This document shows, piece after piece, positions 5,931 to 32,282 of a stretch of DNA of 64,000 nucleotides (the stretch's first letter is position 1; each line of letters begins with the position of its first letter). The DNA comes from Thiothrix subterranea (lineage in GTDB: Bacteria; Pseudomonadota; Gammaproteobacteria; Thiotrichales; Thiotrichaceae): the NCBI RefSeq assembly GCF_016772315.1, contig NZ_CP053482.1, positions 62,001 through 126,000 on the forward strand, read 5' to 3'. The notes beneath the pieces are model-generated. The model saw only the letters and a program-made list of their open reading frames with translations, was not told the origin of the DNA and searched no databases. Position numbers and translations under genes: made by a program.

Positions 5931-7783
5931 TTATTTTTACCTTCATCAGCTAGCAATGATGCTTCTAAAGTTACTTTAATGGCCTTTATATAATCATCCG
6001 CATCATTTTTACCCCAGTAATAAAACTGAGAGGGATATTTAGTAAAATATTTCATAAAGACATACCGAGTACATGGAGGGACAAAAATACGTGATCCAGC
6101 TTTATCAATATCAATAATATTTTGGCGTTTTACTATAAAAATTGAATTACTCAATTTTGTATTTGAACGACTATCCAATAATGCAAGATTACCTATTCCG
6201 TGTAGATTATGATGAAAGCATTTATCAAATAAGGAAAAAACCATATCTTTAATTTTTGAATACTGATCTATAATGTCACGACTAATTTCCTGCTCATCCT
6301 TAAGTTCACTTATTCCATTTAATTTTTCGTTTTCATCATCATAAAAATTTGATAATTCATGAATAATTTTATCAACTTCCTTTTTATCAATTTCACTTTG
6401 AAGATTTGTTTTTTCCTGCAACTCTTTTAAAACACCATGATGATCTTTAAACCAGCGTTCCCATTCCTTTTTGGTTTTCAACTCTTCAGAATTTTGAGCA
6501 TGGATATGCTCCAAACTCCATGATATATTCTCACGATTATAATATCCAAATGGGAAGCGATATATTTTATTATTTTCATATTGAAGGGATGTATGCTTTA
6601 TATTGAACCACAACAGAATATTTTTAATTAATTCCTTGTTTTTATCGTAACTTAATCCATCGATAAAATCCGATTTTGGCTTACTGAGTTCTAGTGTATT
6701 TTTTATCTTTTCTTTCAAATCCGTCTTAAAGTCAACTTTTGACTTAGTTTCATATTCTATCTTCAAGTCACTAATTTCACACTTTTTTGCTGCAATCAGA
6801 AAACCAACCATTTGATAAAGCTCATCATCTTCAAACCACTCTCTGAAAACTAAGTGATAATTCTTCACTTTCATCCATTCTTCATGAAGATCCTTTGATA
6901 ATTGAATCCCATTTTTCGCTTTTAATTCACCGTAAAAGTACCTAAATGAATGGTCTTTATCACTTTTTTCTTGTTTTTTTGAAATCAAATCAAAGATAAA
7001 CTCAATTATGGTCGGTGTTTCGCACTTCTTCTTATTCAAAAAATACCAAAAATCATCATCTTGCAGAGAAAGTTCAATCGTATCCCACTCCATAGCTATT
7101 TCGAGTTGTTTACGTCTAATAGTTTCCGCATGATCACCAAAATTCTTTTGTTGCAAGAACAATGCTTTAATAAGTTCCGCATTGGTCAGTTGGATTTTTC
7201 CCATATTGAAGCGGGCAAAGACCTCATGTGAATCTTCTTCTTTATTAACATCATACCAAATAAATTTGACGTTATTTAGCAGATCACCAACATTAATCTC
7301 ATATATTTCACACCATTTTTCTATGGTGTTATAGGCATAAAACATATGTAAGAAATCTACATTATTTTCTGATTCAGGCTTTGACTTTTCATTGATTTCT
7401 TTCAAGAAAACCGCACTACTATGTCCTTGTTGCTCTCTAGTTTCATAACGAATTTCAAAATTTTCAAGATCAATACAAACAGGGAGTTTTTCTTTGAATG
7501 ATAAATAACTAAAAATAATATGTATAGTTGTCAAACGTTGCTGACCATCTATAACCTCCCAAAAACCTTGATATTCACCATTTTCTATTTCTTTAACAAT
7601 TAAAGGTTGTAGGCAATAGTAACTGTCTACATTATTTTTGGAGAATTCTAAAATATCATCAAGCAAATCATTGACCTGACGACATGTCCAACGGTAGCCG
7701 CGTTGGTAGGAGGGAATCAAGAATTTTTTATTCAATAAATCCTTAACTGGTACAAGTTTATCGTTCGCAATCTGTTCTGACAT
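5927..7783 (-). CDS. DUF262 and HNH (DUF1524-like) protein, GmrSD-type
   Basis: This looks like a complete GmrSD-type enzyme. The N-terminal DUF262 domain has IPSYQRGYRW at residues 23-32 and IDGQQRLTTI at 78-87. Near residue 425 SLEHIHAQ matches the DUF1524 HNH-like nuclease motif, and near residue 528 GIGNLALLDSRSNTKLSN matches its conserved second half. GmrSD family members are type IV restriction enzymes that cleave modified phage DNA; the target here is not known. I choose the ATG at 7783; a TTG at 7801 would add six residues. It is the first gene of the pair and overlaps the next by 4 bases. Very AT-rich, like its partner, so probably acquired together. It is divergent from the P-type ATPase; the 189 bases between them are AT-rich and hold no other gene. 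Confidence 0.82.
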   Translation of the reverse strand: MSEQIANDKLVPVKDLLNKKFLIPSYQRGYRWTCRQVNDLLDDILEFSKNNVDSYYCLQPLIVKEIENGEYQGFWEVIDGQQRLTTIHIIFSYLSFKEKLPVCIDLENFEIRYETREQQGHSSAVFLKEINEKSKPESENNVDFLHMFYAYNTIEKWCEIYEINVGDLLNNVKFIWYDVNKEEDSHEVFARFNMGKIQLTNAELIKALFLQQKNFGDHAETIRRKQLEIAMEWDTIELSLQDDDFWYFLNKKKCETPTIIEFIFDLISKKQEKSDKDHSFRYFYGELKAKNGIQLSKDLHEEWMKVKNYHLVFREWFEDDELYQMVGFLIAAKKCEISDLKIEYETKSKVDFKTDLKEKIKNTLELSKPKSDFIDGLSYDKNKELIKNILLWFNIKHTSLQYENNKIYRFPFGYYNRENISWSLEHIHAQNSEELKTKKEWERWFKDHHGVLKELQEKTNLQSEIDKKEVDKIIHELSNFYDDENEKLNGISELKDEQEISRDIIDQYSKIKDMVFSLFDKCFHHNLHGIGNLALLDSRSNTKLSNSIFIVKRQNIIDIDKAGSRIFVPPCTRYVFMKYFTKYPSQFYYWGKNDADDYIKAIKVTLEASLLADEGKNK

Positions 7784-7972
7784 AGCCCTATTTTCCGCCA
7801 AAATGAATTCAATCTGAACACTTTATCATCAACGCGCTGACGTACTCAACCATAGCAAATACTTATTGCTATTACTGAATAATTACTGATTGAAATTTTT
7901 TTCAACTCAATGATTTCAAAATTCATAACTTATTGATTTCCATATATCACTCGACCGGTGTATAACAAGACT

Positions 7973-17699: not shown

Positions 17700-18534
17700 A
17701 ATCCTACACCGCACCTATTACAACTTCCCCGGCATGGTGCGCCTCGAACCGCACACCTTGCGCTTACGCCCCCGCGAAGGCTACGAATTACGCATCGAAT
17801 CCTCCAACTTAAACATCACGCCTGCCGCCACCCTGCGCTGGCATCGGGATGTGGAGGACAATTCGGTCGCCATTGCCACGTTCAAAACCCCGACCACGCA
17901 ACTGGTGATAGAAAGCACCATCATCATCCAGCAATACAACGAAGCCCCACTGGATTTTTTGGTCGCCGATTACGCCACCTATTACCCGTTCACCTACCTG
18001 CCGGATGATCAAGCGGTATTAGCCCCCTACCGACAAGCAGGCGATCCACCCAGTGCCTTGCTGGAAAAATGGGTCGCAAGCCTCTGGCAACCGGGTGAAA
18101 AAATTCAGACGTACAGCTTATTAAAACGCCTTGCCGAACGCATCCAACAAACCCTGAAGTATCAGTTACGTGAAGAGCCGGGCGTGCAATCCGTGAACGA
18201 CACGCTCACCCGTGGTACGGGGTCGTGCCGTGATTCGGCGTATCTGTTTATGGAAACGGCACGGCGTTTAGGTTTTGCCGCCCGCTTTGTCAGCGGCTAC
18301 CTGCACGCACAACTGGCACCGACCGATTTCGGCGCAACCCATGCCTGGGCAGAAATATTCCTACCCGGCGCAGGCTGGAAAGGCTTCGACCCCACCGTCG
18401 GCACCATCGTGGGAACCGACCACATTGCGGTAGCTGTCGCCCGTCAGCCCGAATCCGTGCCACCCGTGGCAGGCGCATTCATCGGGCCTGCGGGTGCAAC
18501 GCTGACGGTAGGTGTTTGGGTGACAGAAATATGA
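17686..18534 (+). CDS. Transglutaminase-like cysteine protease family protein
   Basis: The 282-residue protein has the bacterial transglutaminase N-terminal region ([27 protein letters not shown]) and a transglutaminase-like core with the catalytic triad in [13 protein letters not shown] (Cys), [11 protein letters not shown] (His) and WKGFDPT (Asp). The C-terminal [21 protein letters not shown] is normal for the family, which argues that the gene really runs to 18534. Members are predicted peptidases or amidases; the substrate is unknown and no signal peptide is seen. Its start overlaps phosphoketolase by 14 bases, and its end overlaps the opposite-strand gene at 18444 by 91 bases. Confidence 0.85.
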
Positions 18535-21500
18535 GGCTGCCACAAACCGCCGTGGTTAATGGCAGTCCAGCCCCAACGCAACCACCCCAGCAAGGCAACA
18601 GCTAACCACAACGCCCAAGCCAACATCAGCAAGCGGTAATACAAAATCGGCACACTGATCACACCTGCCTGTGGCAATACCCCTGCCACGCGATCTTGAT
18701 ACCATTGCAATTGTTGTGCCCACGAACCGTTGCCAGTGATTTGCATATCCGGCGACCCCAGCAAGCCATTGGCAACCGCCCCCACCAAAGTCGCTAACGC
18801 CACCAAGGTCAAGCCTGCCAAACCCACTTGCATCAGATTAAATTGCCAATAAGGTCGCGCCCAGTCAGCGCGTGACACTTTGCTCCGCAACGCCAAAGCA
18901 ATCAGCCAAAACGCCATTAACACCATCAAAAACGGCGTACTTTGGCTCAAACCAATGCCCAGCAAGAACCATTGCCAGCTTTTTAGCGGGGTAATTTTGG
19001 AACGCCCCAACACCAGCGCAAACACCAGCAACACCACGACCATGCCCCAGAACAGCACCGCAGGCCCCAGCAAAGGCCCATGCGTCCACAATACCCAACG
19101 GTCTTGCGGCACTTGCAAGCGTGATTCGCTATTAACACTCGGCAAACCCAAATCGACCGCCGGGAAGGTGTAATGCAAAGGCAATGCGCCGTTTTCCTGC
19201 CATTCCAGCACCGCCTCTTGTTTGCGCGGCAATAACGGCAGGATCACCTTGCCCGCTTGCTGTTGAATCGCTTGTTTCGTGCCATCAATCGTCAAGCTTT
19301 GCACCACCGCGTCTTCTGGCAGGCTAATGCTGTGTTGTGAACCCCGGCTGCTGTGCAAATTCAGGCGCAAGCTGACATCACGGGCGCGTTTGCCAATCTC
19401 GACCTGCATCTGGCTGGCAAGCAGCGTCACGGTTTGCCCGGCAGTGCCTTGCGGACGGTTAACCGCCAAACTCAAGGTTTCGCCTGCCCACGGCTTCCAC
19501 AATAACGTGCCTTGTGCGTCGGCTTCTTCATAAGCATTGGCAGGCAAACCCGTGGCATCGACGTGCCATACCGGGCTGGCAGCAATGCGCCATTCTTCCA
19601 ACCAAGCGTTGTTTTGACTGGCGGTAAGCTGCAATGCTGCGGTCTGCGGCAGCCGTGATGTCCATTCCAACGTGTTTTGCTGCGGTTTGAGATTGATTTG
19701 CAGTGCCTGATCTTTGAGGGTGAATTGCTCACTCAACGGTTGTTCGCCCGCCAGCAACGGAATCGCCAAGCTGATCGGTGCGGCACTGTCAGACACGCGG
19801 CTGATGGTGGTAGTAACATACCAATCCAACCCCAAATCCAAGCGTCGCGAAATTTTGACGAACGCGGGCAAGGTTGGCATGTCTTGCACGGTGTTATCGC
19901 TGCTGACGGTGGTGCGGTTCAGTTGAAGCTGGGCTTCGGGTACACCGTTGTCGCGGATACCGTCCACCTGCCAGCCATCGCCTTGCCAAGTCACGCGATG
20001 CGGTTTCAGCGGCAAAGGTAACGCGATGCTGCTGCGCGTGGGAATAGCGCCTTGCAAGACCACCTCGTGCTGACCTTGCGCCAAGACTACCCACAATTGT
20101 TGCTCAGCATCACGGCGCAAGGCTTGCGTCAGTTGCGCATCCACCAATACGGTTTGTGGCAACCACGTGCTTTGGCTACCCGGCAATGGCACGGCAACGG
20201 CGGTAGCCGTGTGTACCCGCAGCCGGATTTGCAAGCCGTCATTCCCCACATTCAGGTACATTTGCTCGATTTGCGCACAATTAGGCAAACACTCCGGCGC
20301 ACGTAGCAAACGTTCTTGCAAGGTTTCCAGCAGACTGGGGTCGGGTGTATTGCTGGCGGGTGCAACAGGCATGGCGGCAACAGCAGGCGATTCTGCCAAG
20401 GCAGTTTGCGGCAGTGTTACTATTACCCACGGTACGGTCATCGCCAGTAACAACGTCACGGACAAACCGCGTTTGGCGGATTGGGTCGCTTGCCACAACG
20501 CCGCCAATTTGCCGGAAACCAACGCCAAACGTGCCGCCAAAATCAGCATAATAATCACCCCCAACACTTTGAGCAGCGAATGTGCTACCGGCGAAATCAG
20601 CCACAAACCCATGCGTTCGTCGGGTTGAATCACGCCTGACCATTCCAGACGCACCTGATTCCATTGCCATGTGGGTAAGCCGGGGCCGGTTTGAATCATG
20701 CTATTCGGGTCGATTTCACGCAGATTGGCCTGCTGTTTGGCGGGTCGTGCCTCAGGATACGCGCTGATGTTTGCCAAACTACTCATTTTCTCACGCGCAT
20801 AATTCTCCGATTTCATCATGGGAGCAGGCGCTGGAGCAGCAGGCATAGTGGCTTGATCTGCCATCATTACCGCATCTGCATCCATCGCTTCCTCAGCGGC
20901 AGGCGCGGCGGCTGAGGTATAGACCACGCCATTCATGCCACCACTGGTGCTGTATTCCAACTGCGGGTACAGCGCCAAACGCACCGTATCAATGGTGTAT
21001 GGCAAAATCACCAGCACCAATCCCAGCAAGCTCAACCAGCGGTAACGCCCCAGCCAACGTTGAATCGCTCCTTCCGGCACGGAACGCAGCAACGCCGTGA
21101 CCGCCAACAGATTCAACCACAACAAACGTGGCGCATTCGGTTGATGCCAAGTCAGCAACAAGGCAAACCCTGCCACCGCTCCCCATTGCCAGCCAAATAA
21201 ATAGCCAGTTGCCACCGTAGTCAGCAATACCAGAAACAAATCCAGCAGGCTCCATTGCTGCAACCAAGTCATCGGCAAATTGTCCGTGCCACTCGCCGCA
21301 AACAGCAACCAGCCGGGCGGCAAGTGCAAAGTGGTGGTCACTTGCTGCAATTCCTGTTGCCAACCGCTGACCGGCGGGCTGGAACGCGCTGCCTCGTAAC
21401 GGCTATCGGCTTCGAGTGCCAGATTACGCTGGCGCACTTCCACGCCAGCGGCTTGTCCTGCGGCTTGTTGGGTAATCAATTGCGGTGTGCCATCAATGCT

Positions 21501-22658
21501 GACCCTGCCGAGGTGAATATCGGACAGCACTTCCAGCCGTGACTGTTGCGCCAGCGTTCCCGTCAACTGGTCTTGCAGGGTGTAGCCATTGCCGTCGAAA
21601 TCCAGCCACAGTTGGCGGGTTAAATTGAGTTGCGCGGGGCTGTCTGCCATGCCGCGATGTTGTTCTGCCAAGGTCATTTTGCTGCCACTGGTGAGCAGAT
21701 AGGCAGGCAAACTTGCCGAAGTATCCGGCAAGCGGGTTTGGCTGGGGTCAACGCTATTCACGCCTTCGACCTGCACTTGGCGCATCGTCGGGTCGGCTTC
21801 AAATACCCAAACTTCTTCGCTAGGCCAAGGGGTAGAACTCACGGGCAAGGCTAATTCGGTGACATTGGTGAGGGCGCGTCCGGTGAGTTTGAGTGTCCAT
21901 TCGCCGGGGCGCAGTTGAACTTGCAGCTTGCCGTCCTGCCCCATGCGCGTGGGTAAGGGACTATCGAGGTGCAGCGGGATAAAACCGTCCAGCAAGACCG
22001 GGGTGAATTCGGCGTAGCGTTGCTTGCCTGCGACACGCAATTGAATGTGGGTAGTGACTTCGAGAGGGTGCGAATCCAACACTTTGCGGAAGACTTGCAC
22101 TTCGAGGTTGTCTTCGCTGGCTTCTTGGTTGGTTTGGCTGAGCCATAAACTGCCAGTGGCGTTGAATTCGGGAGTGGCGATGTTTGCACTATTGACGCTG
22201 AGTTGCACCAAGCCGCTGGTCGGGGCAACGAAGAGCGCTTCGGGGAGTTTGTCCCAGACGAATTGTCCGCTGAGATCGTGGCTGCCTGCGGGGAGCGTGA
22301 CAACCGGATAGCCGTCTTTTTCGAGTACTGCCAAGGGGGTGTTGGTGCTGTTTTGCACTTGCTGAGGCCAGTGTTGCGCATCACCGGGCAGGCGTACTTG
22401 GGTTTCGCCGTAGACGTCCCAGTGTTGGGTGAACGTGCCGCCCGTAGCAGTAAGCTGCAAATCTAAACGTCCCGGCCAAGCGCATTGGCGTTCTTCGGCG
22501 TTGAAGAGGTAGGGGCATTGCAGGTCTTTTTGCCCATCCAACACCCAGCCTATCCACGCTTTGAGCGGTTCGGGGACGTTTTCGGGGGCAAGCGGGTTGG
22601 CGTGTGCGGTGGTGAGCAAGAATAGCCAGAGGGGGAGGAGGCGCAGAAAATGTAACAT
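18444..22658 (-). CDS. Large membrane protein of unknown function (1404 aa)
   Basis: A signal peptide (LPLWLFLLTTAHA) is followed by about 450 residues that look like exported beta-rich sequence, a membrane cluster of about three or four helices (residues ~475-570), a Met/Ala/Pro-rich linker, two more helices (~700-760), a second beta-rich region (~780-1190) and four or five C-terminal helices. I do not recognise a named family. The layout, two extracytoplasmic regions alternating with helix clusters, suggests a large inner-membrane protein with periplasmic domains. The last 91 bases overlap the convergent transglutaminase gene and encode a low-complexity Pro/Ala/Thr/Gly tail, so the C-terminus may be a recent extension. 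Confidence 0.72.
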   Translation of the reverse strand: MLHFLRLLPLWLFLLTTAHANPLAPENVPEPLKAWIGWVLDGQKDLQCPYLFNAEERQCAWPGRLDLQLTATGGTFTQHWDVYGETQVRLPGDAQHWPQQVQNSTNTPLAVLEKDGYPVVTLPAGSHDLSGQFVWDKLPEALFVAPTSGLVQLSVNSANIATPEFNATGSLWLSQTNQEASEDNLEVQVFRKVLDSHPLEVTTHIQLRVAGKQRYAEFTPVLLDGFIPLHLDSPLPTRMGQDGKLQVQLRPGEWTLKLTGRALTNVTELALPVSSTPWPSEEVWVFEADPTMRQVQVEGVNSVDPSQTRLPDTSASLPAYLLTSGSKMTLAEQHRGMADSPAQLNLTRQLWLDFDGNGYTLQDQLTGTLAQQSRLEVLSDIHLGRVSIDGTPQLITQQAAGQAAGVEVRQRNLALEADSRYEAARSSPPVSGWQQELQQVTTTLHLPPGWLLFAASGTDNLPMTWLQQWSLLDLFLVLLTTVATGYLFGWQWGAVAGFALLLTWHQPNAPRLLWLNLLAVTALLRSVPEGAIQRWLGRYRWLSLLGLVLVILPYTIDTVRLALYPQLEYSTSGGMNGVVYTSAAAPAAEEAMDADAVMMADQATMPAAPAPAPMMKSENYAREKMSSLANISAYPEARPAKQQANLREIDPNSMIQTGPGLPTWQWNQVRLEWSGVIQPDERMGLWLISPVAHSLLKVLGVIIMLILAARLALVSGKLAALWQATQSAKRGLSVTLLLAMTVPWVIVTLPQTALAESPAVAAMPVAPASNTPDPSLLETLQERLLRAPECLPNCAQIEQMYLNVGNDGLQIRLRVHTATAVAVPLPGSQSTWLPQTVLVDAQLTQALRRDAEQQLWVVLAQGQHEVVLQGAIPTRSSIALPLPLKPHRVTWQGDGWQVDGIRDNGVPEAQLQLNRTTVSSDNTVQDMPTLPAFVKISRRLDLGLDWYVTTTISRVSDSAAPISLAIPLLAGEQPLSEQFTLKDQALQINLKPQQNTLEWTSRLPQTAALQLTASQNNAWLEEWRIAASPVWHVDATGLPANAYEEADAQGTLLWKPWAGETLSLAVNRPQGTAGQTVTLLASQMQVEIGKRARDVSLRLNLHSSRGSQHSISLPEDAVVQSLTIDGTKQAIQQQAGKVILPLLPRKQEAVLEWQENGALPLHYTFPAVDLGLPSVNSESRLQVPQDRWVLWTHGPLLGPAVLFWGMVVVLLVFALVLGRSKITPLKSWQWFLLGIGLSQSTPFLMVLMAFWLIALALRSKVSRADWARPYWQFNLMQVGLAGLTLVALATLVGAVANGLLGSPDMQITGNGSWAQQLQWYQDRVAGVLPQAGVISVPILYYRLLMLAWALWLAVALLGWLRWGWTAINHGGLWQPHISVTQTPTVSVAPAGPMNAPATGGTDSG

Positions 22659-22700: not shown

Positions 22701-24389
22701 TCATTTTAACTTCACCACTTCCACACACACGCCATCGCTAACGAGTAGCCACGCACTCAGTTTGGGAAGTACGGCAATATCAGGTAACTGCAAATATCCC
22801 TCTACTTGGGTAATACCGGCTTGGCGTTTAGCTGCCCAACCCGCCTCACCGTCGGATTGTTTGCTGTATTTCAGTTCGATCAAATGCTGGTGATCCACCA
22901 CAATTGGGCTACGTTCCAGCAGCAGAATGTCGGGGTATTTACGGTTCATTTCCCGCTCGCTCTGAATGAAATACACCGAGGTTTGGTACAGCAAGGTGAG
23001 CAACAGCACTTTAACGTGCTTTTCATCCATTCCCATCGCATCGCGGTTGGAGAGCAATTGCAGCGCCCGTTCCATTTCGGTGATCAACGGTTGGATGTCG
23101 TCTTGTAACGCCAACACTTCGACCGCCAACGCAATCGCCCGATTGGAAATCGTCATTTGGTTGCGGCGTTCCAATTCCACTTTGAAATACTGGAAGTACA
23201 ACTCACGCATCACGTAATTGGGAATGCTGAATACCTCGCCCGCCAAGGTTTTGCGCTGCAACGACACAAAGCCCATATACGCTAACAAGCTAATGAAGTC
23301 GTCACGCTCGAAGCCTTTTTCAAAGTCAAATTTGCGGCGTTGTTGCGCTGTCACTTCCCCGTTCGTCATCAGCTCATCCAGCACAGCGAAATTGGTATCG
23401 CGGTTGCCGATGCTGAACATGCCGAGAATTTTGCCGTAATCGGAAGCAATGTTTTCATCCAACATCGGGTCAGGATAAGCACAGTGTTTTAGGCGGAAGT
23501 TTTTGACGAAATACAGCACCATATTGGCGTTGAATACGGTGTCAGTTGCAGGCGCGAAGCGGTAGCCGTTGTACCAGCGGGTGATGTCCGCCAACAAGGT
23601 AGCGGGTTCAAGGTTGCACGCTTCCACCAAAGGCTGGAGCAAAGCCGCCACTTCTGTTTTGGTGAAACCGATGGCTTCATTGAAATCTTCGTGTAGGGAA
23701 AGGTTTTCGCCGATATTGAAGCCGCTGGTCATGCTGTCGAGCATGATTGGGGTTACGCCAGTGATGTATAAACGGTCAACTGTACCGCGTTGGGTAGCGG
23801 TTTTGATGGTTTCGTAGAAGCTGCGCACGAAGCCACCTTTGCCGACGACACGTTGGAACAATGTCAGGTCATCCGCCAAAATGGTATTAGCAAAGTGGTC
23901 GTATTCGTCGATCAGCAACAGGATTTTTTGCTCGCTCATGACTTCAAAAAAATATTCCATTTTGGCAGCGGGTGAAGTTTTCAGCTCGATTGTCGCCCCC
24001 AGCGCCTCTGCATAACCGTAGCGGCGCAGGAAACCTTGCAAGCTGGTGGCAATTTTTTCATTAAAGCGCTGATAAATCCGTGCTTCACCTTCCCCTGTGT
24101 CGATGCCGCTGAACTCCATGAACAGCACTTGGTAGCTGTTTTTGAGGGGGGTTGGGTGTTTGCCGAGGTATAAGTTGCCGAATAGAGTATCGAATTCTGC
24201 CGCGTGTTGGGTGTCGTAGTAATATTCCATTGCAGACAGCAGCAGGCTTTTACCGAAACGGCGTGGGCGTAACAGGATAATGTGGCGACCGCTGTCTTCC
24301 AACTTGGCGATGTAGTCGGTTTTGTCTACGTAGGCGTAGCCATCGGTGATGACTTGTTTGAAATTGCTTAGACCGTAGGGGATTTTCAT
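22701..24389 (-). CDS. AAA-ATPase-like / PD-(D/E)XK nuclease-like protein (paralogue)
   Basis: This 562-residue protein belongs to the same PF09820/PF08011 family as the gene at 1658. It has Walker [13 protein letters not shown] near residue 42, Walker B in LLLIDEYDHFANTIL, the conserved YITGVTPIMLDSMTSGFN, and a C-terminal nuclease-like part with KYPDILLLE and HLIELKYSK (D...ExK). The nuclease residues appear intact. It sits next to the FGE/toxin-antitoxin/conflict genes, but a functional link is only suggested by position. Two genomic copies in 22 kb fit the known tendency of this family to multiply. Confidence 0.85.
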   Translation of the reverse strand: MKIPYGLSNFKQVITDGYAYVDKTDYIAKLEDSGRHIILLRPRRFGKSLLLSAMEYYYDTQHAAEFDTLFGNLYLGKHPTPLKNSYQVLFMEFSGIDTGEGEARIYQRFNEKIATSLQGFLRRYGYAEALGATIELKTSPAAKMEYFFEVMSEQKILLLIDEYDHFANTILADDLTLFQRVVGKGGFVRSFYETIKTATQRGTVDRLYITGVTPIMLDSMTSGFNIGENLSLHEDFNEAIGFTKTEVAALLQPLVEACNLEPATLLADITRWYNGYRFAPATDTVFNANMVLYFVKNFRLKHCAYPDPMLDENIASDYGKILGMFSIGNRDTNFAVLDELMTNGEVTAQQRRKFDFEKGFERDDFISLLAYMGFVSLQRKTLAGEVFSIPNYVMRELYFQYFKVELERRNQMTISNRAIALAVEVLALQDDIQPLITEMERALQLLSNRDAMGMDEKHVKVLLLTLLYQTSVYFIQSEREMNRKYPDILLLERSPIVVDHQHLIELKYSKQSDGEAGWAAKRQAGITQVEGYLQLPDIAVLPKLSAWLLVSDGVCVEVVKLK

Positions 24390-24467: not shown

Positions 24468-25328
24468 TCACGTCTTCCCTTGGAGGCGCTTCGCATCATG
24501 CTGGGCTGACTGTAACTCAAGACCTATGGCAAGCCGAAAGCCTAAGAGAGCGCGACGGTCATTACGATAGAACTTATGACGGGAGGCAGAACGCGCGAAT
24601 CCGCCGTTGGAGCCCCACGAACCACCACGAACGACTTGCAGAATACTAGCTTCTTGGTCGTCTCTGGCAACAGCTTTCGGGTTTGAGACGACATCTTTAC
24701 CCAAATGATCTCGCCACATATCTTCGCACCATTCCCATACGTTGCCATGCATTTCGTACAAGCCCCAAGCGTTGCAGGGGTAGGTTTTAACATCCTTGGT
24801 TTCCCCCTTAATGTCAGAATCGTCCCACTTGCCTGAGTAGTTCACTTTTTCGAGTGTTAAATCTTGCTTGTCACCGAAGTTGAACAGGGTTTTTGTTCCA
24901 GCACGGCAGGCGTATTCCCATTCGGCCTCCCACGGCAAGCGCACGCTTAAATCGGAGTGGATTTGGTTAAGTTTGTCGATGAAGGCATGGCTATCCTCCC
25001 AACTTACGGTTTCGACAGGGCGTTTGTCACTTTTAAAGTGGCTGGGATTTTCACCCATAGTGATTTGCCACAGGGCTTGGGTGACGGTAGTTTCGGCGAG
25101 CCAAAAACCTTGAGTGATAGTAACTTTGTGCAAATCTTCGTCGCTATCGCGACCTTCTTCAGCTTCAGGAGACCCCATCATGAACGTGCCAGGTTGAATC
25201 CAGCGGAAGGCATGGCGCACGTTTTTGTAGGTGAAAGCTTGCCATAGGCCGTAGCGGTCTTCGCCCCAGTCGGAAGCCCAAGCGTAAGGGAAAACAGGGG
25301 GAGAGAGATGGTTGCGGTAGGCACTCAC
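24468..25328 (-). CDS. FGE/SUMF1-like domain protein
   Basis: Nearly the whole 286-residue protein is a formylglycine-generating-enzyme (SUMF1, C-type-lectin-like) fold: FRWIQPGTFMMGSPEAEEG, QGFWLAETTVTQALW, PVETVSWEDSHAF, RLPWEAEWEYACRAG, GLYEMHGNVWEWCEDMW and RGGSWGSNGG...LLGFRLA. The paired active-site cysteines of true FGE are not present in the C-terminal motif, so sulfatase activation is unlikely; a binding role is more plausible. It starts with GTG only 3 bases after the stop of the PIN toxin gene, so it is the third gene of a toxin-antitoxin operon. The C-terminal ~40 residues resemble a diversity-generating-retroelement variable region. Confidence 0.85.
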   Translation of the reverse strand: MSAYRNHLSPPVFPYAWASDWGEDRYGLWQAFTYKNVRHAFRWIQPGTFMMGSPEAEEGRDSDEDLHKVTITQGFWLAETTVTQALWQITMGENPSHFKSDKRPVETVSWEDSHAFIDKLNQIHSDLSVRLPWEAEWEYACRAGTKTLFNFGDKQDLTLEKVNYSGKWDDSDIKGETKDVKTYPCNAWGLYEMHGNVWEWCEDMWRDHLGKDVVSNPKAVARDDQEASILQVVRGGSWGSNGGFARSASRHKFYRNDRRALLGFRLAIGLELQSAQHDAKRLQGKT

Positions 25329-25331
25329 CAG

Positions 25332-25805
25332 CTATTCCCCAACCAATTGCAATGCTTCCTGCAACACAACGTCTGACAGGAAAATACCAGCTTGTTGGAT
25401 AGCCAGTAAGCCAGAGCGGATTTCACCCACATGCCCATAATCTTTTGCCCAGATCAGCATACCGACGCTGCCGATGGTGTTGAGTTTGTTGAAAATGGCA
25501 ACTTTGCGGGCGCGGCGATCATCTATCAGCAAAAAATCAGCGTGCAAGTGCTTATAAAGCGACATGGCTTCCAGTTCGCCATCGCCTAAACCCGCAGGGG
25601 TGATGATCGTTTCACACAAGTCGATGGGAATCGTTTTGCCCTGCAAATAGTCACGGAGTGTGTCGGCTTTGGGTTTTCCCGCAACTGTGCATTCGTTGAA
25701 GACGGCAACTGGCACACGCACTTCCTGAAAACGGATGTCCAACCAATGCAAGCCATCACATACCGCCACTGCAACCAGTGCGGAGGAATCAGCCACAACC
25801 AGCAT
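25332..25805 (-). CDS. DUF3368 / PIN-domain toxin-like protein
   Basis: The 157-residue protein matches DUF3368, a PIN-like nuclease group partnered with UPF0175 antitoxins. Acidic positions expected in the PIN active site are visible in VVADSSALV, VFNEC, GDGELEAM and LLIDDRRAR. A ribonuclease toxin role is inferred from the family. The ATG overlaps the stop of the antitoxin gene by one base (TGATG), so the two are translationally coupled, and an FGE-like gene follows after 3 bases. Confidence 0.85.
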   Translation of the reverse strand: MLVVADSSALVAVAVCDGLHWLDIRFQEVRVPVAVFNECTVAGKPKADTLRDYLQGKTIPIDLCETIITPAGLGDGELEAMSLYKHLHADFLLIDDRRARKVAIFNKLNTIGSVGMLIWAKDYGHVGEIRSGLLAIQQAGIFLSDVVLQEALQLVGE

Positions 25806-26059
25806 CAGGATGCCTTTCTGAAAGCTGCAACCTCAGCCGCCAGCTCACCCGGCTCGTAATTGATCATGGCGATATTGTGCTTTTTACACTCAGTAATGAA
25901 GGTAAAGCGGTCAACTCCCGCAAACTCACAAGCTGCACCAGCAGAGAGGCTACCCGACTGGTACATGGTCAGGGCTGCATAGAGTTTAATACGCCGACCC
26001 AGCTCTACGGGTGAAAATTCCATGCAGAATTGTTCAGGTACATCCAGCGTGATTTGCAT
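25805..26059 (-). CDS. UPF0175 family antitoxin-like protein
   Basis: The 84-residue protein shows the UPF0175 pattern: ITLDVPEQF at the N-terminus, ELGRRIKLYAALTMYQSGSLSAGAACEFAGVDRFTF with a helix-turn-helix-like segment, and a C-terminal toxin-contacting tail. It is the first gene of a three-gene unit with a DUF3368 PIN protein and an FGE-like protein. As in other antitoxins, it probably represses its own promoter, which must lie in the 116-base gap before the divergent gene at 26194. Confidence 0.87.
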   Translation of the reverse strand: MQITLDVPEQFCMEFSPVELGRRIKLYAALTMYQSGSLSAGAACEFAGVDRFTFITECKKHNIAMINYEPGELAAEVAAFRKAS

Positions 26060-26193
26060 GAGTAGGCTCCTATCGTTAGATTATGGATCTGATTATAGCG
26101 TTATCATACCGCCAAGGCTGCTTCCATTGCCACCTGCACCAGCGCATGATGTAACTACACTTTTGTAAGGATTTAATGATGGAAGGAGGTTTT

Positions 26194-26523
26194 ATGAAAA
26201 CCGAGGCGGATAAGGAATGGGAATATCTGGTCAATATGCCGGATGAGGAAATCGACTTTAGCGACATCCCCAAAACAACAGCGGAGATGTGGAAAAATGC
26301 CGAAGTTGGCAAGTTTTATCGCCCTGTGAAGAAGCAGGGTACAGTTAGGATTGATGCTGATATTTTGGCTTGGCTACAATCTGATGGGGCTGGGTATCAG
26401 ACACGGCTGAATCAATTGTTGCGGGATGCGATGCTGCAAGCGCCGAAGAAACCGGGTGAATTAGAGAAAATACGGCTCATGATGATGAAAACTTGTGTTT
26501 CATTTTTTACGTTTCTTTCTTGA
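26194..26523 (+). CDS. BrnA-like antitoxin, partner toxin absent
   Basis: The sequence MPDEEIDFSDIPKTTAEMW and the ribbon-helix-helix-like VRIDADILAWLQSDGAGYQTRLNQLLRDAM match the BrnA antitoxin family (partner toxin BrnT). The ATG at 26194 has a strong GGAGG five bases upstream (GGAAGGAGG at 26180-26188); the ATG at 26176 lacks one. No BrnT gene lies upstream or downstream, so it is an orphan or a relic, possibly regulating another toxin. The last ~18 residues (RLMMMKTCVSFFTFLS) are unlike the family and probably derive from read-through into unrelated sequence. Confidence 0.78.
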   Translation: MKTEADKEWEYLVNMPDEEIDFSDIPKTTAEMWKNAEVGKFYRPVKKQGTVRIDADILAWLQSDGAGYQTRLNQLLRDAMLQAPKKPGELEKIRLMMMKTCVSFFTFLS

Positions 26524-26611: not shown

Positions 26612-29425
26612 TCAAGACATAGATAGGGCAAGACGAAAACCAAGGTCGTTGTTACGGTAAGTGGGATCTCGCCTGAGACGAAAGGCAGAACGCACGCTCC
26701 CACCGTCATCACGCCACGAGCCGCCGCGAACGGCGTACCCAAGACCTGCCTGCTTGACGTCTCCGGCAACACCATCTGGGTCTGTAACCGGCAAAGCCGG
26801 TAATTTTTCTTGCCACACATCATGGCACCATTCCCACACGTTGCCATGCATTTCATACAAACCCCACGGATTGGCTGAAAGTGATTTAACGGGAACAATC
26901 TCTTCTCTATATAAACCTTTTTTGCCATTCGCATAGGGGTGATTTCCGTCGTAATTGACTTGTTCTGGGGTAATATTATCACCGAATGAAAATGGTGTGG
27001 TCGTGCCCGCGCGGCAGGCGTATTCCCACTGGGCTTCGGTAGGGAGTTTGGCTTGTACACCGGAAATGAAGGCATTGAGCTTTTGGAGATAATATTGAAT
27101 GTCGTTCCAGCTTACTTTCTCAACGGGGTTTTTTAGATTGTCTCTGAAATTGCTGGGGTTGTCGCCCATGACGGATTTCCATTGATATTGGGTGATGGTG
27201 CTGTCTGCCAGCCAAAAACCTTGAGTTAGGGTAACTTGGTGTTGAACTTCGTCATCGTAGCGTTCTGCTTCGGATTCGGACGAACCCATGAGGAATGTGC
27301 CGGATTCAATCCAGCGGAAGCGTTGGGGGATGATGACTTCTATGAAGCCTTCTTTGCCAAAACTTCTTCCAGTCTCTTTTATATCGAGATCAGCATACAG
27401 ACCGTAATCATCAAACCCCACACCCTCATTCGTATTGCAAACCCAGTGACCAGCAAATCCATTACCAGAACGTGAATATTCACCCTCCGCCCAAAAGAAG
27501 CGGTAATGCTTACCGGCGAACGGCATAACCGCTTCCAAGCCTGTCGGGGTGCGAATGATTTCAGATGCCCAACCGGGTTTAGTCAATGGCGTTATCACCA
27601 ACCTTTCCAAACCCGTATCTAGTGTTACCATCTGACCTTGCAGATGACAAACTCTCAACCCCTGCCCCACATCTTGTAACCGGAACGGATAAGCCTGTTC
27701 CGCCTGAACCATTAGCGTGTCATGGTGCATTTCAAACTCAGCCAGACGCGCCCAAGTCACCAAAGCAGCGGGTTCAAGATGGGTTTCCCGAACTTCTAAA
27801 TATTCCCCCCGTTGTATCAACTCGTAACGTTTTGGCTCAACCCGCTTCCGCACCATCGCCAACACCATATCCGCATCATACTCGGCGGATACCGCCCCAC
27901 CCTCACGCAACTGCTCATGATATGCCAAACTGTACAAGGCATACGCATAGCTATCGTTGTAAAGTGCCTTACCCTCCTCATCCTTACCCAACCGCTGCAA
28001 ATGCCGCCGCGCAAACTGCGCCATTCCCTCATGCCTGCTCTGCCCCGCAAAACTGCGCGTAAACCGCACCATGAATTTCTCCGCCCACGCTGCATCATCC
28101 AGTGTAAACACGGTCAGCGGCTTGGCATTCAACACCGTTTCCGCCCACACCGCCGGAAACTGCCCAATATGATGCTGGCGAATCACTGCCAACACTTGCC
28201 GCTGCAAACTGGCTGGCTCTTGCCGAAATAGTGCCTGATACGCCGCACGCTTGTCTGCCCGCAACGTCATCGCGGTATAGCCCCACACCACATCCGGGTG
28301 CAGATACACCGCAGCCTCTACCCCACTATCCGCCTGAATCGCGGGCAAACACCCCAAAATGGCGCGTAATAATTCCGGCTCTACATGCACTGCCACCGAC
28401 AGCAAACTCAACACCCGTTGCACATGGCTGGTGTGTTCTTGCTGTTGCTGATTCGGCTTTTGTGGCTTAAACCGACTCAGCCTACCCCACGGTATCTGAT
28501 CGACCAAAGCGGTGAATGGCGCGTACTGCTGCGCGGGCGACACTGGGCTTAACACCAGCGGGCGAATACCTTGACGCGCTAATTGCTGGGCAAAACGCAA
28601 CCAGCCTTGGCACACCACACTGCCTTGCGTACTAAGCTGCCCCATATCACTGACAATCAACACCACACTCGGCACTTTCAATGGCTGCCAAGCTTTCACG
28701 ACTTGCTGCTGATCAAACCAATCGTAATAACGCCCACCCGGCTGATCTTCAAGTACTCGAATCTCCAAGCCATTTTTGCCGTGTTGACACGCCAGCAAAT
28801 CACACAAATCATGCGCATCTTGCCAAAACGGTAACAGGCGCTTATTCAAATCCAGCAAGACATACACCCGACCGGCGGGCAGCACATGCGGACGGCGCGG
28901 GATACGCTGCAAGGCTTGCAGGCGAGCAACCTGCTTCACCAAACGCGGAACATCCAACCGCTGCCCCAAAGGGTAGGTCAACGCTTGGCGCAAAAAAGGC
29001 AAGAGCCGCTGTTGGGGAACAAGCGGCTGATGCGCTAACGGTTCACCTTGTTCGAGCGGGCGCAAATCTGCCGCTGACAGCGGTTCGATACCCCGCAAAC
29101 ATTCGGGTAAATCATCGTCTGGCTGATCAGGATCAGCGTATTGTTCGCGATGTTTGAGTGCGTAAAATGCTTCGGGTGGGCGCGTTATCGCAGCGGGTTC
29201 TTTATCTTCCTCTGGATGCGGACTCAGTGACTCATCATCCGGTGATTCAGGCTTGAAATCACCCTGATCTCCGTTACTAACAGTAATCTTGAGATTGACG
29301 TTAGCTTGCGGCTCTAACCATTCATAGCCCAGTATCTCTGCCGCCAATTGTTTTTCAGCAGGCGTATGACAGCGCCGCATCCAGCGCAACAAATCGGCAC
29401 GGCTGGTCTGGCTGGTGGGCTGCAT
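26612..29425 (-). CDS. vWA-like / FGE-like fusion, effector of MoxR conflict system
   Basis: The 937-residue protein starts with a helical, acidic region (1-135), followed by a von Willebrand A-like fold (~185-335). It has a first strand VYVLLDLNKR at 187-196 and a second acidic strand VVLIVSDMGQLSTQG ending near 268. The metal site DxSxS reads DLNKR, so it is degenerate. Residues ~340-690 are unassigned. The C-terminal ~245 residues are an FGE/SUMF1-like domain: RFRWIESGTFLMGSSESEAE, QGFWLADSTITQYQW, KLPTEAQWEYACRAG, MHGNVWEWCHDVW and RGGSWRDDGG...DLGFRLA. FGE active cysteines are missing. The ATG directly abuts the stop of the MoxR ATPase gene (TGA|ATG). With that gene, the protease and the Trypco2 protein it makes a MoxR/vWA conflict operon. 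I infer that the FGE domain recognises the target. Confidence 0.8.
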   Translation of the reverse strand: MQPTSQTSRADLLRWMRRCHTPAEKQLAAEILGYEWLEPQANVNLKITVSNGDQGDFKPESPDDESLSPHPEEDKEPAAITRPPEAFYALKHREQYADPDQPDDDLPECLRGIEPLSAADLRPLEQGEPLAHQPLVPQQRLLPFLRQALTYPLGQRLDVPRLVKQVARLQALQRIPRRPHVLPAGRVYVLLDLNKRLLPFWQDAHDLCDLLACQHGKNGLEIRVLEDQPGGRYYDWFDQQQVVKAWQPLKVPSVVLIVSDMGQLSTQGSVVCQGWLRFAQQLARQGIRPLVLSPVSPAQQYAPFTALVDQIPWGRLSRFKPQKPNQQQQEHTSHVQRVLSLLSVAVHVEPELLRAILGCLPAIQADSGVEAAVYLHPDVVWGYTAMTLRADKRAAYQALFRQEPASLQRQVLAVIRQHHIGQFPAVWAETVLNAKPLTVFTLDDAAWAEKFMVRFTRSFAGQSRHEGMAQFARRHLQRLGKDEEGKALYNDSYAYALYSLAYHEQLREGGAVSAEYDADMVLAMVRKRVEPKRYELIQRGEYLEVRETHLEPAALVTWARLAEFEMHHDTLMVQAEQAYPFRLQDVGQGLRVCHLQGQMVTLDTGLERLVITPLTKPGWASEIIRTPTGLEAVMPFAGKHYRFFWAEGEYSRSGNGFAGHWVCNTNEGVGFDDYGLYADLDIKETGRSFGKEGFIEVIIPQRFRWIESGTFLMGSSESEAERYDDEVQHQVTLTQGFWLADSTITQYQWKSVMGDNPSNFRDNLKNPVEKVSWNDIQYYLQKLNAFISGVQAKLPTEAQWEYACRAGTTTPFSFGDNITPEQVNYDGNHPYANGKKGLYREEIVPVKSLSANPWGLYEMHGNVWEWCHDVWQEKLPALPVTDPDGVAGDVKQAGLGYAVRGGSWRDDGGSVRSAFRLRRDPTYRNNDLGFRLALSMS

Positions 29426-30394
29426 TCAGACCGCTTTCCTGAGCACAAAATCACGGATGTCATCCAGCAATGTCGTCTGGTAGGCAGTACGTGCGTCACC
29501 TTGCAAGCCCACCTCAGTCATCTCGTCCAATGCGGTCAGCAGGTCAAGGTATTCCGCCAAACCCGCTTTCACCATGCCATGCCTCTCGGCTTCGTCGCGG
29601 TCTTTTTTGAGTTCTTGCGCCGCGTAACGTTTGATGGCTTGGCAACATTGCGTATCGTTGATATGCACATCGGCACGCTCGATCAACCACTCTTCAAAGC
29701 GGTTTTCCTCCACCTTCAGCGATAACACCAGACAACGGCGCAGGAAAGCAGGCGGCAATTCACGTTCGTTGTTGGTGGTAATGATCACTAACGGCGGCTG
29801 TCGCTGCGGCTCACTACCAACCGTTTCACCTAGCATGGGGACTTCAAAACCGCCGTTGCCCAACACTTCCAGCAAACTATTGGGGAGCGAAGGCTCGGCT
29901 TTGTCGATTTCATCAATCAGCAACACGATACCGTTGTCCAAATTGCCATCGTCACAGATTTGCGGGCGGTAGACTTTATGGCGGCAAACGTCGTTGTATT
30001 GTTTAGCCGCACTGTTCCAGCCAAACACCCACCACAATACGCCGGGGTTGAGGTAATGCGCGGGATTCAGTGCATCACCTTCCTGCTTGGTTTGAGCATC
30101 ATTCAACCGTGCCACTGGATCATAACGCCACAGCAAATCCTGCCCTTCGGTGTTGATATTGATGACTTCAGCGACAAACTTACGCTTCAACTTGGCAGCG
30201 GCGGCGCGTGCCAGATAGCTTTTTCCCATGCCGGGTTCGCCTTTCACCAACAATGGGCGACGGGTTGCCAACGCCATTTCCAACGCGAAAGCAGAAGGCT
30301 TATCCAGCAGGTAATTGCCACCTTGCCACGAACCACAGGTGTTGAAGTCGATGATGTCGCCGGGGTGGAAATTTTTCAGGGTTGGGTTAGTCAT
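29426..30394 (-). CDS. MoxR-family AAA+ ATPase
   Basis: The 322-residue protein has the AAA+ core: Walker A LLVKGEPGMGKSYLAR near residue 50, Walker B VLLIDEIDKAEPSLPNSLLEVL, sensor 1 PLVIITTNNERELPPAF and the arginine finger in LRRCLVLSL. MoxR ATPases act as chaperone-like remodelling engines with vWA proteins. It lies 4 bases after the protease gene and abuts the vWA/FGE gene, so it is the motor of the operon. In conflict systems the MoxR-vWA pair is thought to hold the effector in an ATP-controlled inactive state; that role is inferred here. Confidence 0.88.
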   Translation of the reverse strand: MTNPTLKNFHPGDIIDFNTCGSWQGGNYLLDKPSAFALEMALATRRPLLVKGEPGMGKSYLARAAAAKLKRKFVAEVININTEGQDLLWRYDPVARLNDAQTKQEGDALNPAHYLNPGVLWWVFGWNSAAKQYNDVCRHKVYRPQICDDGNLDNGIVLLIDEIDKAEPSLPNSLLEVLGNGGFEVPMLGETVGSEPQRQPPLVIITTNNERELPPAFLRRCLVLSLKVEENRFEEWLIERADVHINDTQCCQAIKRYAAQELKKDRDEAERHGMVKAGLAEYLDLLTALDEMTEVGLQGDARTAYQTTLLDDIRDFVLRKAV

Positions 30395-30398
30395 AACT

Positions 30399-31853
30399 TC
30401 AACTGTATTGCTGGATTATTCGGAAAAACTCGTTTACTTGTGCGTATAAGTCTGCTTCTAAATCTGCATCTTTGTCAGCAGCTTCTAAGCCGTAGCGGAC
30501 AATGGGTAGATTAGGCAAACATGTCGGATGATGCAATGCAGCGCAAACCGCCTCATCATGCAAAGGATGGGTTTTCTTCAACATATCGGTCGTTTCAATT
30601 TCAAACCGTATCAATTCAGGGTGTTTATTTTTACGGCGAGTCAACAATGTCGTATTTAATGCACGTAGATCGAACCTGCCCAATGTTTCTTTGGGTTCAC
30701 TACCATGCACCCGCTTATAAGCCTTATTCACCGCCACATTGACGACCTTGATAATTTCTTTAGTATTGTCTTCAGTCTTCCAACCTACTTCCCGTAAACA
30801 CTCATCATCAATCACGTAACAGCCAACAACATCGTTTTTTCCCGGTACTCGCTTCAAATCGGGACGAACCTTGTAATGAGTTGCCAACGACACTTCAACC
30901 ATCATGCGGGAATATACCGCCAAGTTGTGGATATTCTGATCATTTGCCGGATTTTTTGCAGTTATCACGCCTAATAACAGACAGAGCAACGTTTTGGCAT
31001 GTTCCGCACTTGCATGATCTTTTGTCATGACAGGTTCAGCTAACAAGCGTAACTTTTCGATGACAGCAACAGGATCATTTTCCACCGCTGTTTGAATACC
31101 ATTCAATAGGATTGCAGCACTGGGCTGCAATCCCTTTTCAACAAAACCTGTTATCAGTGCTAGAAATAGCGGCGAATCATTGATACTGTCCAAGTAAATG
31201 CCACATTCATCAAGAAAAAATTGCTGAGTTCGATTGCTCTCAGCGTAACCAACAGCCTCGCGAAATGTAGTAATATGCTCCAGCAAGTAAGGAATAGAAA
31301 CTGCGTACAAATACCGATCTATCGTCTTGTATTTAATCGTAATGACCGCACTCAGGCAACCATTAATAAAAACAGGCGCACCAGACAACCCCGCCCAGTC
31401 CCCTTCAACTTTGATCGGTGTAGTAGCAAGCAATTCAAGCTGATCAGCTTCGCAACCACCGTTCACACGCCCCGAAGCAGAAATAGCGACATGCCCTTTA
31501 TCATCTTGCCCCGCCAATGGAAAACCACGACATTGATAAGCATCATCTGGTTTCGGAAAACGTTGTGCCAGTCTCGGATAAAACCTTGCATCAGCCAAAG
31601 GCGTTAAGCAGTGCAATAGGGCAATATCGTGCTCACTTGCACACGCATGAACCGCATCAGGCGTTAGCGTTTCATCAGGTTGGTCACAATAAGGCCATTG
31701 CACCAGAATACCTTTCTCAATATTCTGATTTTCGATGCTCACCACATGCAAAGCCGTCAGCAACACCCCAGTCTGAAGCGGATAGCCAGTCCCTACAAAC
31801 AGCTCATATTTATGATTCCAAACATAAATACGAGCAACAAACTGCTCATCCAT
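30399..31853 (-). CDS. Trypsin-like serine protease with unknown C-terminal region
   Basis: The first ~220 of 484 residues form a chymotrypsin-fold protease without signal peptide, so it is cytosolic. The triad is apparent as H36 (LLTALHVV), D76 (SEHDIALLHC) and S157 (WAGLSGAPVF). The C-terminal ~260 residues are mostly helical and I do not recognise them; they may sense or bind the partner proteins. The gene lies 21 bases after the Trypco2 gene and 4 before the MoxR gene. Cytosolic trypsin-like proteases with Trypco partners are known from NTP-dependent conflict systems, where they probably activate effectors by cleavage. Confidence 0.85.
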   Translation of the reverse strand: MDEQFVARIYVWNHKYELFVGTGYPLQTGVLLTALHVVSIENQNIEKGILVQWPYCDQPDETLTPDAVHACASEHDIALLHCLTPLADARFYPRLAQRFPKPDDAYQCRGFPLAGQDDKGHVAISASGRVNGGCEADQLELLATTPIKVEGDWAGLSGAPVFINGCLSAVITIKYKTIDRYLYAVSIPYLLEHITTFREAVGYAESNRTQQFFLDECGIYLDSINDSPLFLALITGFVEKGLQPSAAILLNGIQTAVENDPVAVIEKLRLLAEPVMTKDHASAEHAKTLLCLLLGVITAKNPANDQNIHNLAVYSRMMVEVSLATHYKVRPDLKRVPGKNDVVGCYVIDDECLREVGWKTEDNTKEIIKVVNVAVNKAYKRVHGSEPKETLGRFDLRALNTTLLTRRKNKHPELIRFEIETTDMLKKTHPLHDEAVCAALHHPTCLPNLPIVRYGLEAADKDADLEADLYAQVNEFFRIIQQYS

Positions 31854-31874
31854 CTACAGCCCCCTAATCTTGTA

Positions 31875-32210
31875 TCAGGCGATACGGGTTGCTTTCCCTG
31901 AAATTCGTGCCTTGTTAGACGTTTTAGCCTCGCCAGACTCGCTAGTTTCTGTGGAAGACACAATCGGACTCAGTTTCAGCTTAATGGTATGACTAACACT
32001 TTCTTTTTCGTTAAAACCGCCGCCGAACTTAATCACGCTGAAATTGAAACCGCCATCGGCAGTTTTGCCCTCTTCCAGCACGGTCTTCAGTTCAACTTCA
32101 ATTTCGTTGACATCAAACTGCAACACCTCAGCGTTGCCAGCTTCAATTGCAGCGCTCAGATCAGCACGTAATGCCTTAATGACTTCTACCAAATTTGATT
32201 TCTGACTCAT
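31875..32210 (-). CDS. Trypco2 domain protein (trypsin-co-occurring)
   Basis: The ~111-residue protein matches the trypsin-co-occurring domain 2 pattern: LVEVIKALRADLSAAIEAG, then LQFDVNEIEVELKTVLEEG, and a glycine-containing strand NFSVIKFGGGFNEKES followed by HTIKLKLSP. Such small proteins accompany cytosolic trypsin-like proteases in conflict systems; their exact role (inhibitor, adaptor or substrate) is not known. The Ser/Thr/Lys-rich tail (~85-111) looks disordered. GGAGAAG precedes the ATG at 32210; a GTG at 32216 is an alternative. It is the first gene of the four-gene operon. Confidence 0.82.
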   Translation of the reverse strand: MSQKSNLVEVIKALRADLSAAIEAGNAEVLQFDVNEIEVELKTVLEEGKTADGGFNFSVIKFGGGFNEKESVSHTIKLKLSPIVSSTETSESGEAKTSNKARISGKATRIA

Positions 32211-32282
32211 GTTCACTTCTCCAGCCCGTAAAAATTATTTTTCTTTATAGCGGCTGAACAAAGGATGCGCAAGGAAAGAATC

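Follow-up and report, generated by a model that had tools for sequence, protein, structure and literature searches.

A Trypco2, protease, MoxR and FGE operon of Thiothrix subterranea as a putative conflict system of the retroelement-linked kind

MoxR-type ATPases form the centre of several ternary systems of NTP-dependent biological conflict, in which Kaur 2020 (PMC7159879) describes them together with Trypco proteins, trypsin-like peptidases and FGE-fold domains linked to diversity-generating retroelements (DGRs). In the VMAP systems, MoxR is accompanied by a partner with variable C-terminal domains, often of the FGE fold and associated with a DGR, and by a third component with an N-terminal trypsin domain and Trypco1 or Trypco2; the iSTAND systems, which occur in proteobacteria, combine MoxR, a vWA partner and a third component with N-terminal TIR, trypsin or caspase. 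Doré 2024 (PMC10907252) has described loci of Thiohalocapsa PB-PSB1 and its relatives (DGR 8, DGR 9 and clade 5A) in which MoxR lies beside a retroelement target composed of an N-terminal extension (N-extension) and a C-type-lectin domain. DGR 9 carries a trypsin-like peptidase without canonical VMAP, most clade 5A loci include a short, lectin-only second target, and Trypco1/2, TIR and trypsin are often nearby; according to the abstract of that work, the role of retroelement-diversified bacterial lectins as antigen sensors awaits testing. Here we describe a four-gene operon in a stretch of 64,000 nucleotides of the filamentous sulfur bacterium Thiothrix subterranea (contig NZ_CP053482.1, positions 62,001 to 126,000; hereafter the window, whose numbering is used unless otherwise stated). 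With a probability of about 0.6, it can be read as a DGR-linked, MoxR-centred conflict system that is cytosolic and modular, and this copy would have lost its own retroelement or never have had one.

As the first-pass annotation of the stretch had noted, four closely packed genes on the minus strand follow each other in the order Trypco2, protease, MoxR and a protein of 937 amino acids (aa), with gaps of 21, 4 and 0 bases:

31875..32210, minus strand: Trypco2 (trypsin-co-occurring domain 2), 111 aa from an ATG (113 aa from a GTG at 32216); PF19631, E=3.5e-19
30399-31853, minus strand: protease gene, 484 aa, from the list of open reading frames (ORFs)
31269..31853, minus strand: trypsin-like peptidase domain of the protease, residues 1 to about 195, with the H36/D76/S157 triad; Trypsin_2 below cut-off
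30402..31247, minus strand: shared C-terminal domain (C-domain) of the protease, residues 203-484, a putative docking module, from an iterated profile
29426..30394, minus strand: MoxR-type AAA+ ATPase, 322 aa; AAA_5, E=1.4e-15, Walker A at 52 and a Walker B-like LLIDEID at 158
26612-29425, minus strand: whole 937-aa protein, ending in an FGE/C-type-lectin domain, from the ORF list
27356..29425, minus strand: N-extension, residues 1-690 of the 937-aa protein, without family match, with residues invariant in relatives
26612..27355, minus strand: FGE/C-type-lectin domain, residues 691-937, a putative sensor; PF03781 (FGE-sulfatase) at residues 705-933, E=7.3e-45

The Trypco2 and MoxR identities proposed in the first pass are confirmed by these matches. 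Of its cytosolic trypsin-like protease with an intact triad, the residues stand: H36, D76 and S157 are all present. The highest 19-residue hydropathy among the operon products is 1.57, so that none of them has a clear membrane span or signal peptide. The family match itself is softer, with Trypsin_2 found only under Pfam's cut-off (E=5e-4). Among 29 aligned relatives, H is conserved in 28 (one gap), D in 29 and S in 28 (one gap). The peptidase half also resembles LmuA (E=1.2e-7) and Avs1b (E=0.0017), a likeness restricted to the peptidase domain, ending near residues 166 and 193, respectively. The partners of Avs1b and LmuA are a STAND ATPase and an SMC-like protein, and these are not among the identified genes of the window. 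Searches with the protease, Trypco2 and the N-extension find the operon in single copy in the 4.08-Mb genome.

The conserved core of the unit is the pairing of MoxR with the N-extension. A total of 109 loci were examined; after the removal of L174, which has no N-extension, and of ten near-duplicates (>95% identity), 98 distinct loci remained, consisting of 69 found via MoxR, 28 loci of the family found via the N-extension, and the window. A MoxR match lies no more than 2 kb upstream of the N-extension, on the same strand and usually directly adjacent, in all 98, including each of the 28 fetched with the N-extension as query. The loci span gamma-, beta- and alphaproteobacteria, Myxococcota and other former deltaproteobacteria, Acidobacteriota, Planctomycetota and Verrucomicrobiota, i.e., at least five phyla. 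Frequencies among the contig-derived loci are biased, because these are the best 80 of 247 relatives in a profile scan with the MoxR alignment; the N-extension places G410:C121 and G413:C80 and a class-level protease match in G286 stand outside the counts. At the level of the class, 4 of 369 sampled genomes contain a relative of the protease; within the family the figure is 14 of 63, counting the genome of the window itself, and 21 of those 63 contain the N-extension. Besides the window's own, all 16 family-level protease matches fall inside loci with MoxR and the N-extension, and not apart from them. Examination of the neighbourhoods of homologues therefore supports the genes as a unit that recurs and that carries the hallmarks of an NTP-dependent conflict system built around MoxR. 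FGE is fused to the N-extension in 82 of the 98 loci, and among the 58 with at least 3.5 kb of downstream sequence, a second FGE gene is present in 52 and a DGR-type reverse transcriptase (RT) in 18.

This distribution bears on a housekeeping alternative, in which MoxR and a vWA partner would work as a chaperone, like RavA-ViaA, with FGE and the protease serving protein quality control or cofactor assembly. MoxR proteins with vWA partners are indeed known in assembly and chaperone roles (PMC10585395), but the patchy occurrence of the N-extension and the protease, the effector swapping and the hypervariable sensors described below fit such a function poorly, and we consider it quite improbable. 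With regard to mobile elements, the N-extension has zero matches in 72,556 plasmid and 50,697 phage records, and scans of virus contigs returned nothing for the protease and one short match for MoxR (residues 42-69). Two different copies of the system, L157 and L164, are present on pTfr446 of T. fructosivorans, a 446-kb replicon labelled as a plasmid that also carries guaA.

The third component of the system, encoded upstream of MoxR, proved to have a common architecture. Iterated profile searches were seeded with the protease C-terminus, and the gene upstream of MoxR was taken in each locus to be the longest open stretch on the same strand that ends no more than 400 bases from MoxR (a rule that selects a fragment in L080, L082 and L097). 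The C-domain was found, at the C-terminal end, in 67 of the 89 genes adjoining MoxR on its upstream side, and in 64 of the 80 such genes longer than 300 aa. Twelve further matches lie in other segments, and the six among the matches listed are all in these loci. The 260-residue C-terminus, called unknown in the first pass, is no peculiarity of this protease but a shared part of the third component. What precedes it varies widely: the Pfam domains of the 80 upstream genes are TIR_2 (40), Trypsin_2 (28), Metallophos (6), SEFIR (3) and SIR2_2 (2), and many of these genes match PADLOC effector models, bSEFIR, LmuA, Avs1b and ThsB among them. Linkage and the swap boundaries described below suggest that the C-domain docks the effector on the MoxR/N-extension core. 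In L178 and L167 two stretches each carry the shared domain, possibly representing two warheads for one MoxR core.

The C-domain does not correspond to a known family in the collections searched. No PADLOC family matches it at E 0.001 or better, no Pfam family is matched in more than one of 71 members, and PDB sequences give nothing better than E 0.3. Identity with VMAP-C is not supported: PF20028 matches 0 of 71 members at E 0.1, one member matches VMAP-M8 at E=0.05, and a profile comparison with VMAP-C gives 0.06%, the VMAP profile being thin (five rows, at least one in the wrong frame). PF20028 itself is found in 3 of 38 genomes carrying the system. STAND families likewise match 0 of 71 C-domains at E 0.1, by sequence profiles only, and one of the 80 full-length third-component proteins matches NCAB1 (E=0.002).

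Comparison of related loci reveals how the effector is exchanged. In genomes G415 (L083) and G422 (L084), the operon lies beside guaA in both, and the DNA is 97% identical over most of Trypco2, unalignable for the following 600-640 bases, and again 96% identical through the C-domain, MoxR and the N-extension. The corresponding proteins share 88% (Trypco2), 98% (C-domain), 96% (MoxR) and 96% (N-extension) identity, with the first 200 residues of the effector being 20-56% identical per 25-residue step and the remainder 92-100%. As the drop is confined to those 200 residues, little beyond the peptidase domain has been replaced. In the pair formed by the window and G419, the exchanged segment comprises Trypco2 and the entire protease: there is no DNA alignment from 32199 to 30394, and the two halves of the protease are 32% and 31% identical, with MoxR at 89% and the N-extension at 86%. 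On the upstream side, the last homologous block before the swapped Trypco2-protease cassette is the following:

32199..32276, minus strand: upstream stretch common with the G419 orthologue, 91% identical over 78 bp

A tree built from 68 N-extensions places the window in one group (support 100) together with G419, Methylomonas fluvii, G398 and Oceanospirillum beijerinckii, all of them trypsin types. Effector type changes at least 21 times on this tree, compared with an average of 26.9 changes, and never fewer than 21, in 300 shuffles, a count that rests on a quick tree with many long branches; since 21 equals the shuffle minimum, exchange is frequent but not free of ancestry. What the swaps establish is limited to two points, namely that one peptidase can be exchanged for another and that the C-domain is able to remain with the core when this happens; the statement in the first pass that the protease is released to act goes beyond them.

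The gene directly upstream of the window operon is one that we take to be guaA, itself preceded by a presumed 491-aa guaB, and the operon site lies beside guaA in seven loci of the genus Thiothrix. Such allelic variation at one chromosomal site resembles incompatibility loci, and would suit a role in kin or self recognition rather than antiviral defence, where variable lectin sensors would detect non-kin in filaments or rosettes and the protease would enforce incompatibility; the same alternative is raised for this class by Doré 2024. We regard it as unlikely, given that many effectors of the family match phage-defence models and that contact with the ligand of another cell would need an extra step for products in which simple hydropathy shows neither a clear membrane span nor a clear signal peptide. 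A 56-bp repeat after guaA was considered as an attachment site. It recurs downstream in G419, yet similar copies are scattered in both orientations at several places in L072, L083 and L084, so that we read it as a dispersed intergenic repeat instead.

Trypco2 is tied to the trypsin-like effectors. Its gene immediately precedes the effector gene in 19 of 29 trypsin types and in 0 of 44 TIR, phosphoesterase or SIR2 types. This count leaves out 16 further short or unassigned genes, and in three of these loci (L080, L082 and L097) Trypco2 and part of a trypsin are located further upstream. Ten trypsin types have no Trypco2 in that position, and Trypco1 is present in all eight of those included in the test (L109 and L178 being outside it). 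Trypco1 and Trypco2 thus accompany trypsin and are mutually exclusive, the pattern that has also been reported for VMAP systems (Kaur 2020). A Trypco2 gene, overlapped by a longer reverse-strand ORF, is also present in G419.

The 937-aa protein had been described in the first pass as a vWA-like protein fused to FGE. The FGE part is secure, and the vWA part is unproven by model or profile. Comparison of the N-extension with the VWA_CoxE profile gives a non-significant probability of 0.4%, with the best decoy, the protease C-terminus, at 0.6%. That alignment spans 139 columns in the correct topological order, against 3-29 columns for five decoys, at a score not above the best decoy; PDB sequences yield no vWA match to the N-extension. 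Across 53 aligned N-extensions, D158, P176, D203 and W275 are invariant. There are also vWA-like hints, namely D192 after a hydrophobic stretch and SDMG near 260, and the region at about 165-315 is possibly, though not provably, a degenerate vWA domain.

The FGE part is also where a retroelement link appears, which the first-pass annotation missed together with a second FGE gene:

26621..26749, minus strand: variable region (VR) in the fused FGE domain, apparently what remains of a former DGR target, with adenine-biased differences from a sibling template
24468..25328, minus strand: second gene, coding for an FGE domain alone (286 aa) and serving as partner 'short target' of the system; PF03781, E=5.4e-44
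24521..24652, minus strand: VR of the FGE-only gene, with adenine-biased differences from the same sibling template
25332..26059, minus strand: UPF0175 and DUF3368 gene pair (Pfam), toxin-antitoxin-like, between the long-protein gene and the FGE-only gene

An RT match lies downstream in 21 of the 98 loci. In 15 of these, a template was found whose differences from the target fall mostly at its adenines, with 20 adenine to 0 other differences in L085, where an HRDC-domain gene precedes the RT, and 18 to 1 and 18 to 0 in L108; the pattern is weaker in L145, L148, L167 and L175. No template repeat was found in the remaining 6 of the 21. In the siblings L085, L087 and L097, the RT and template occupy the interval that holds the UPF0175/DUF3368 pair in the window. 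Compared with the T. fructosivorans template, the long VR of the window differs at 17 of 30 adenine and 16 of 99 non-adenine positions (p=2.7e-5); for the short VR, the corresponding numbers are 22 of 32 and 21 of 100. Controls in which templates are compared with one another show no adenine bias (adenines 4/41 and 4/41, other bases 17/130 and 19/130), and the own template of the window genome gives 2/29 adenines and 28/94 other bases in the same control. The fused FGE domain thus looks like a former DGR target, and it is this retroelement link that explains its nature. The interpretation of the domain as a sensor, already put forward in the first pass, is the best reading.

No RT was found in the window and no template matching its VR in the genome, where the single template found lies in a DGR at 3.87 Mb and is 90% like the FGE gene near it and 60% like the long VR of the window. 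The operon is therefore an RT-less relative and not an active DGR locus, and its sensor would be fixed, since it lacks the adjacent retroelement and matching template that its siblings keep. The separate DGR of the same genome (G000:C1:3869766-3875014; L017 7952-11878) comprises a TIR-like protein, an FGE target, an RT and the template with its 90% template-target match, along with a small gene that looks HRDC-like by eye, and the same genome encodes single proteins with a terminal FGE and, by eye, a TIR-like start in L018 (7754-10645) and L020 (8770-10083). In G419, the two VRs of the operon differ at 19 of 32 and 15 of 33 adenines and at 1 of 100 other bases each. A search of that genome with the template gave three matches, all of them diversified targets (the third with 18/33 adenines and 2/100 other bases), and no template; with such adenine-marked VRs and no template found, the writer was either lost recently or missed, no RT search of G419 having been made.

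The absence of an RT from the window and of a matching template from the genome would also be expected of a decayed remnant, an operon drifting without function after the loss of its retroelement, and broken relatives with internal stops do exist (G074:C5 and G423). The four ORFs of the window are, however, intact, the catalytic and Walker motifs are present, and MoxR and the N-extension are conserved in G419 at the identities given above, all of which makes decay distinctly unlikely. The name of the Pfam family, FGE-sulfatase, invites the idea of a catalytically active domain that modifies Trypco2 or the protease and does not serve as a sensor. An active FGE carries paired active-site cysteines. 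The corresponding motif occurs in none of the 82 fused and none of the 71 short FGE domains, a soft negative because the same pattern is silent in four paralogues from the genome, so that its sensitivity is unproven. Moreover, the same position is a DGR variable region in siblings, and 68 of the 82 fused domains have a recognisable motif in which the frame RGG-x-W...R..-R is fixed and the intervening positions are hypervariable. We consider enzymatic activity very improbable.

The evidence above is consistent with the following model of the system as a defence. The FGE/C-type-lectin domain, probably with its FGE-only partner, would bind a ligand of the invader, and the N-extension, whose gene is linked to that of MoxR, would couple sensing to the ATPase ring through direct contact. 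The third component would dock on the MoxR/N-extension core by its C-terminal domain and present at its N-terminus an effector that can be exchanged and that in this operon is an intact trypsin-like protease, to which Trypco2 is a specific partner, probably acting as inhibitor, chaperone or activator. ATP-driven remodelling might then expose the protease, leading to the cleavage of host or phage proteins and to growth arrest or death that stops the infection.

Several observations weigh against this reading. PADLOC matches neither Trypco2 nor the 937-aa protein, and the protease only in its peptidase half. Models of vWA in Pfam and NCBIfam match neither the first ~690 residues of the 937-aa protein nor any of the 53 aligned members at E 0.1, 16 of the 80 upstream genes longer than 300 aa lack the C-domain by profile, and effector type is not wholly random on the tree (21 changes against a shuffle mean of 26.9). 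As an RT is seen in only 21 of the 98 loci (some contigs being short), diversification may be missing from many members. Ordinary divergence at exposed sites, where the sibling templates have AAC codons, could account for part of the adenine bias of the window VRs, and two other RT genes of the genome, at 0.20 and 2.62 Mb, lie outside the template comparison. Finally, no phage or death phenotype was seen for any member, and the antiviral role is putative.

The order of the genes, thought in the first pass to be possibly undescribed, is already known, because Doré 2024 describes such an arrangement, with MoxR beside an N-extension/lectin target and with trypsin and Trypco adapters, and Kaur 2020 the wider class. 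Compared by description, the window shares with DGR 8, DGR 9 and clade 5A a MoxR beside a target with an N-extension lacking known domains and a C-terminal C-type-lectin domain, and with clade 5A also a second, lectin-only target (24468-25328). It differs in having no RT or template and VRs that have drifted from the sibling templates, and the shared C-domain of the third component is absent from the passages of Doré 2024 consulted. With the VMAP ternary systems of Kaur 2020 the window shares the three-part logic and an N-terminal trypsin accompanied by a Trypco protein, but its third component has no VMAP-C by sequence profiles; by the same means, the C-domains have no STAND-type family match that would tie them to the iSTAND systems. 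Among the papers listed in searches of the open-access literature, supplements aside, no paper on the arrangement besides these two and no experimental test turned up. This analysis adds the C-domain common to the third components and the exchange of warheads at nearly domain precision, both of which seem to be undescribed, as well as the copies free of a retroelement. A tentative proposal, somewhat more likely wrong than right, is that the family constitutes a third class among the MoxR ternary systems, next to VMAP and iSTAND. It would be defined by the new C-terminal docking domain, with trypsin, TIR, phosphoesterase or SIR2 warheads on one core, and would include copies that lost the retroelement and in which the sensor, hypermutated in the past, persists as a fixed specificity inherited vertically.

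Other genes of the window deserve mention. A BrnA antitoxin is encoded on the plus strand at 26176-26523, in a region kept in G419. At 3513-7801, two overlapping AT-rich genes (about 30% GC versus about 52%), both with GmrSD_N and the second also with GmrSD_C, are likely an acquired type IV restriction-like pair. Two genes at 1658-3445 and 22701-24389 have an identical AAA-ATPase_like / PDDEXK_9 architecture, and a 1404-aa ORF at 18444-22658 has zero Pfam matches at E 0.001.

Overall, the operon looks like a modular defence device in which an interchangeable protease is combined with a conserved core driven by ATP and with a sensor domain of a kind that is hypermutated in relatives. With its four-gene operons in Thiothrix, the family offers a compact test case for DGR-diversified lectins as antigen sensors, including natural pairs that differ chiefly in warhead and sensor domain (L083/L084 and window/G419) and a diversifier present or absent at one chromosomal site. 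In addition, the shared C-domain provides a handle for spotting the third component where VMAP was reported missing. If the proposal holds, the retroelement-less copies would be, in effect, a germ-line-encoded memory of an adaptive receptor.

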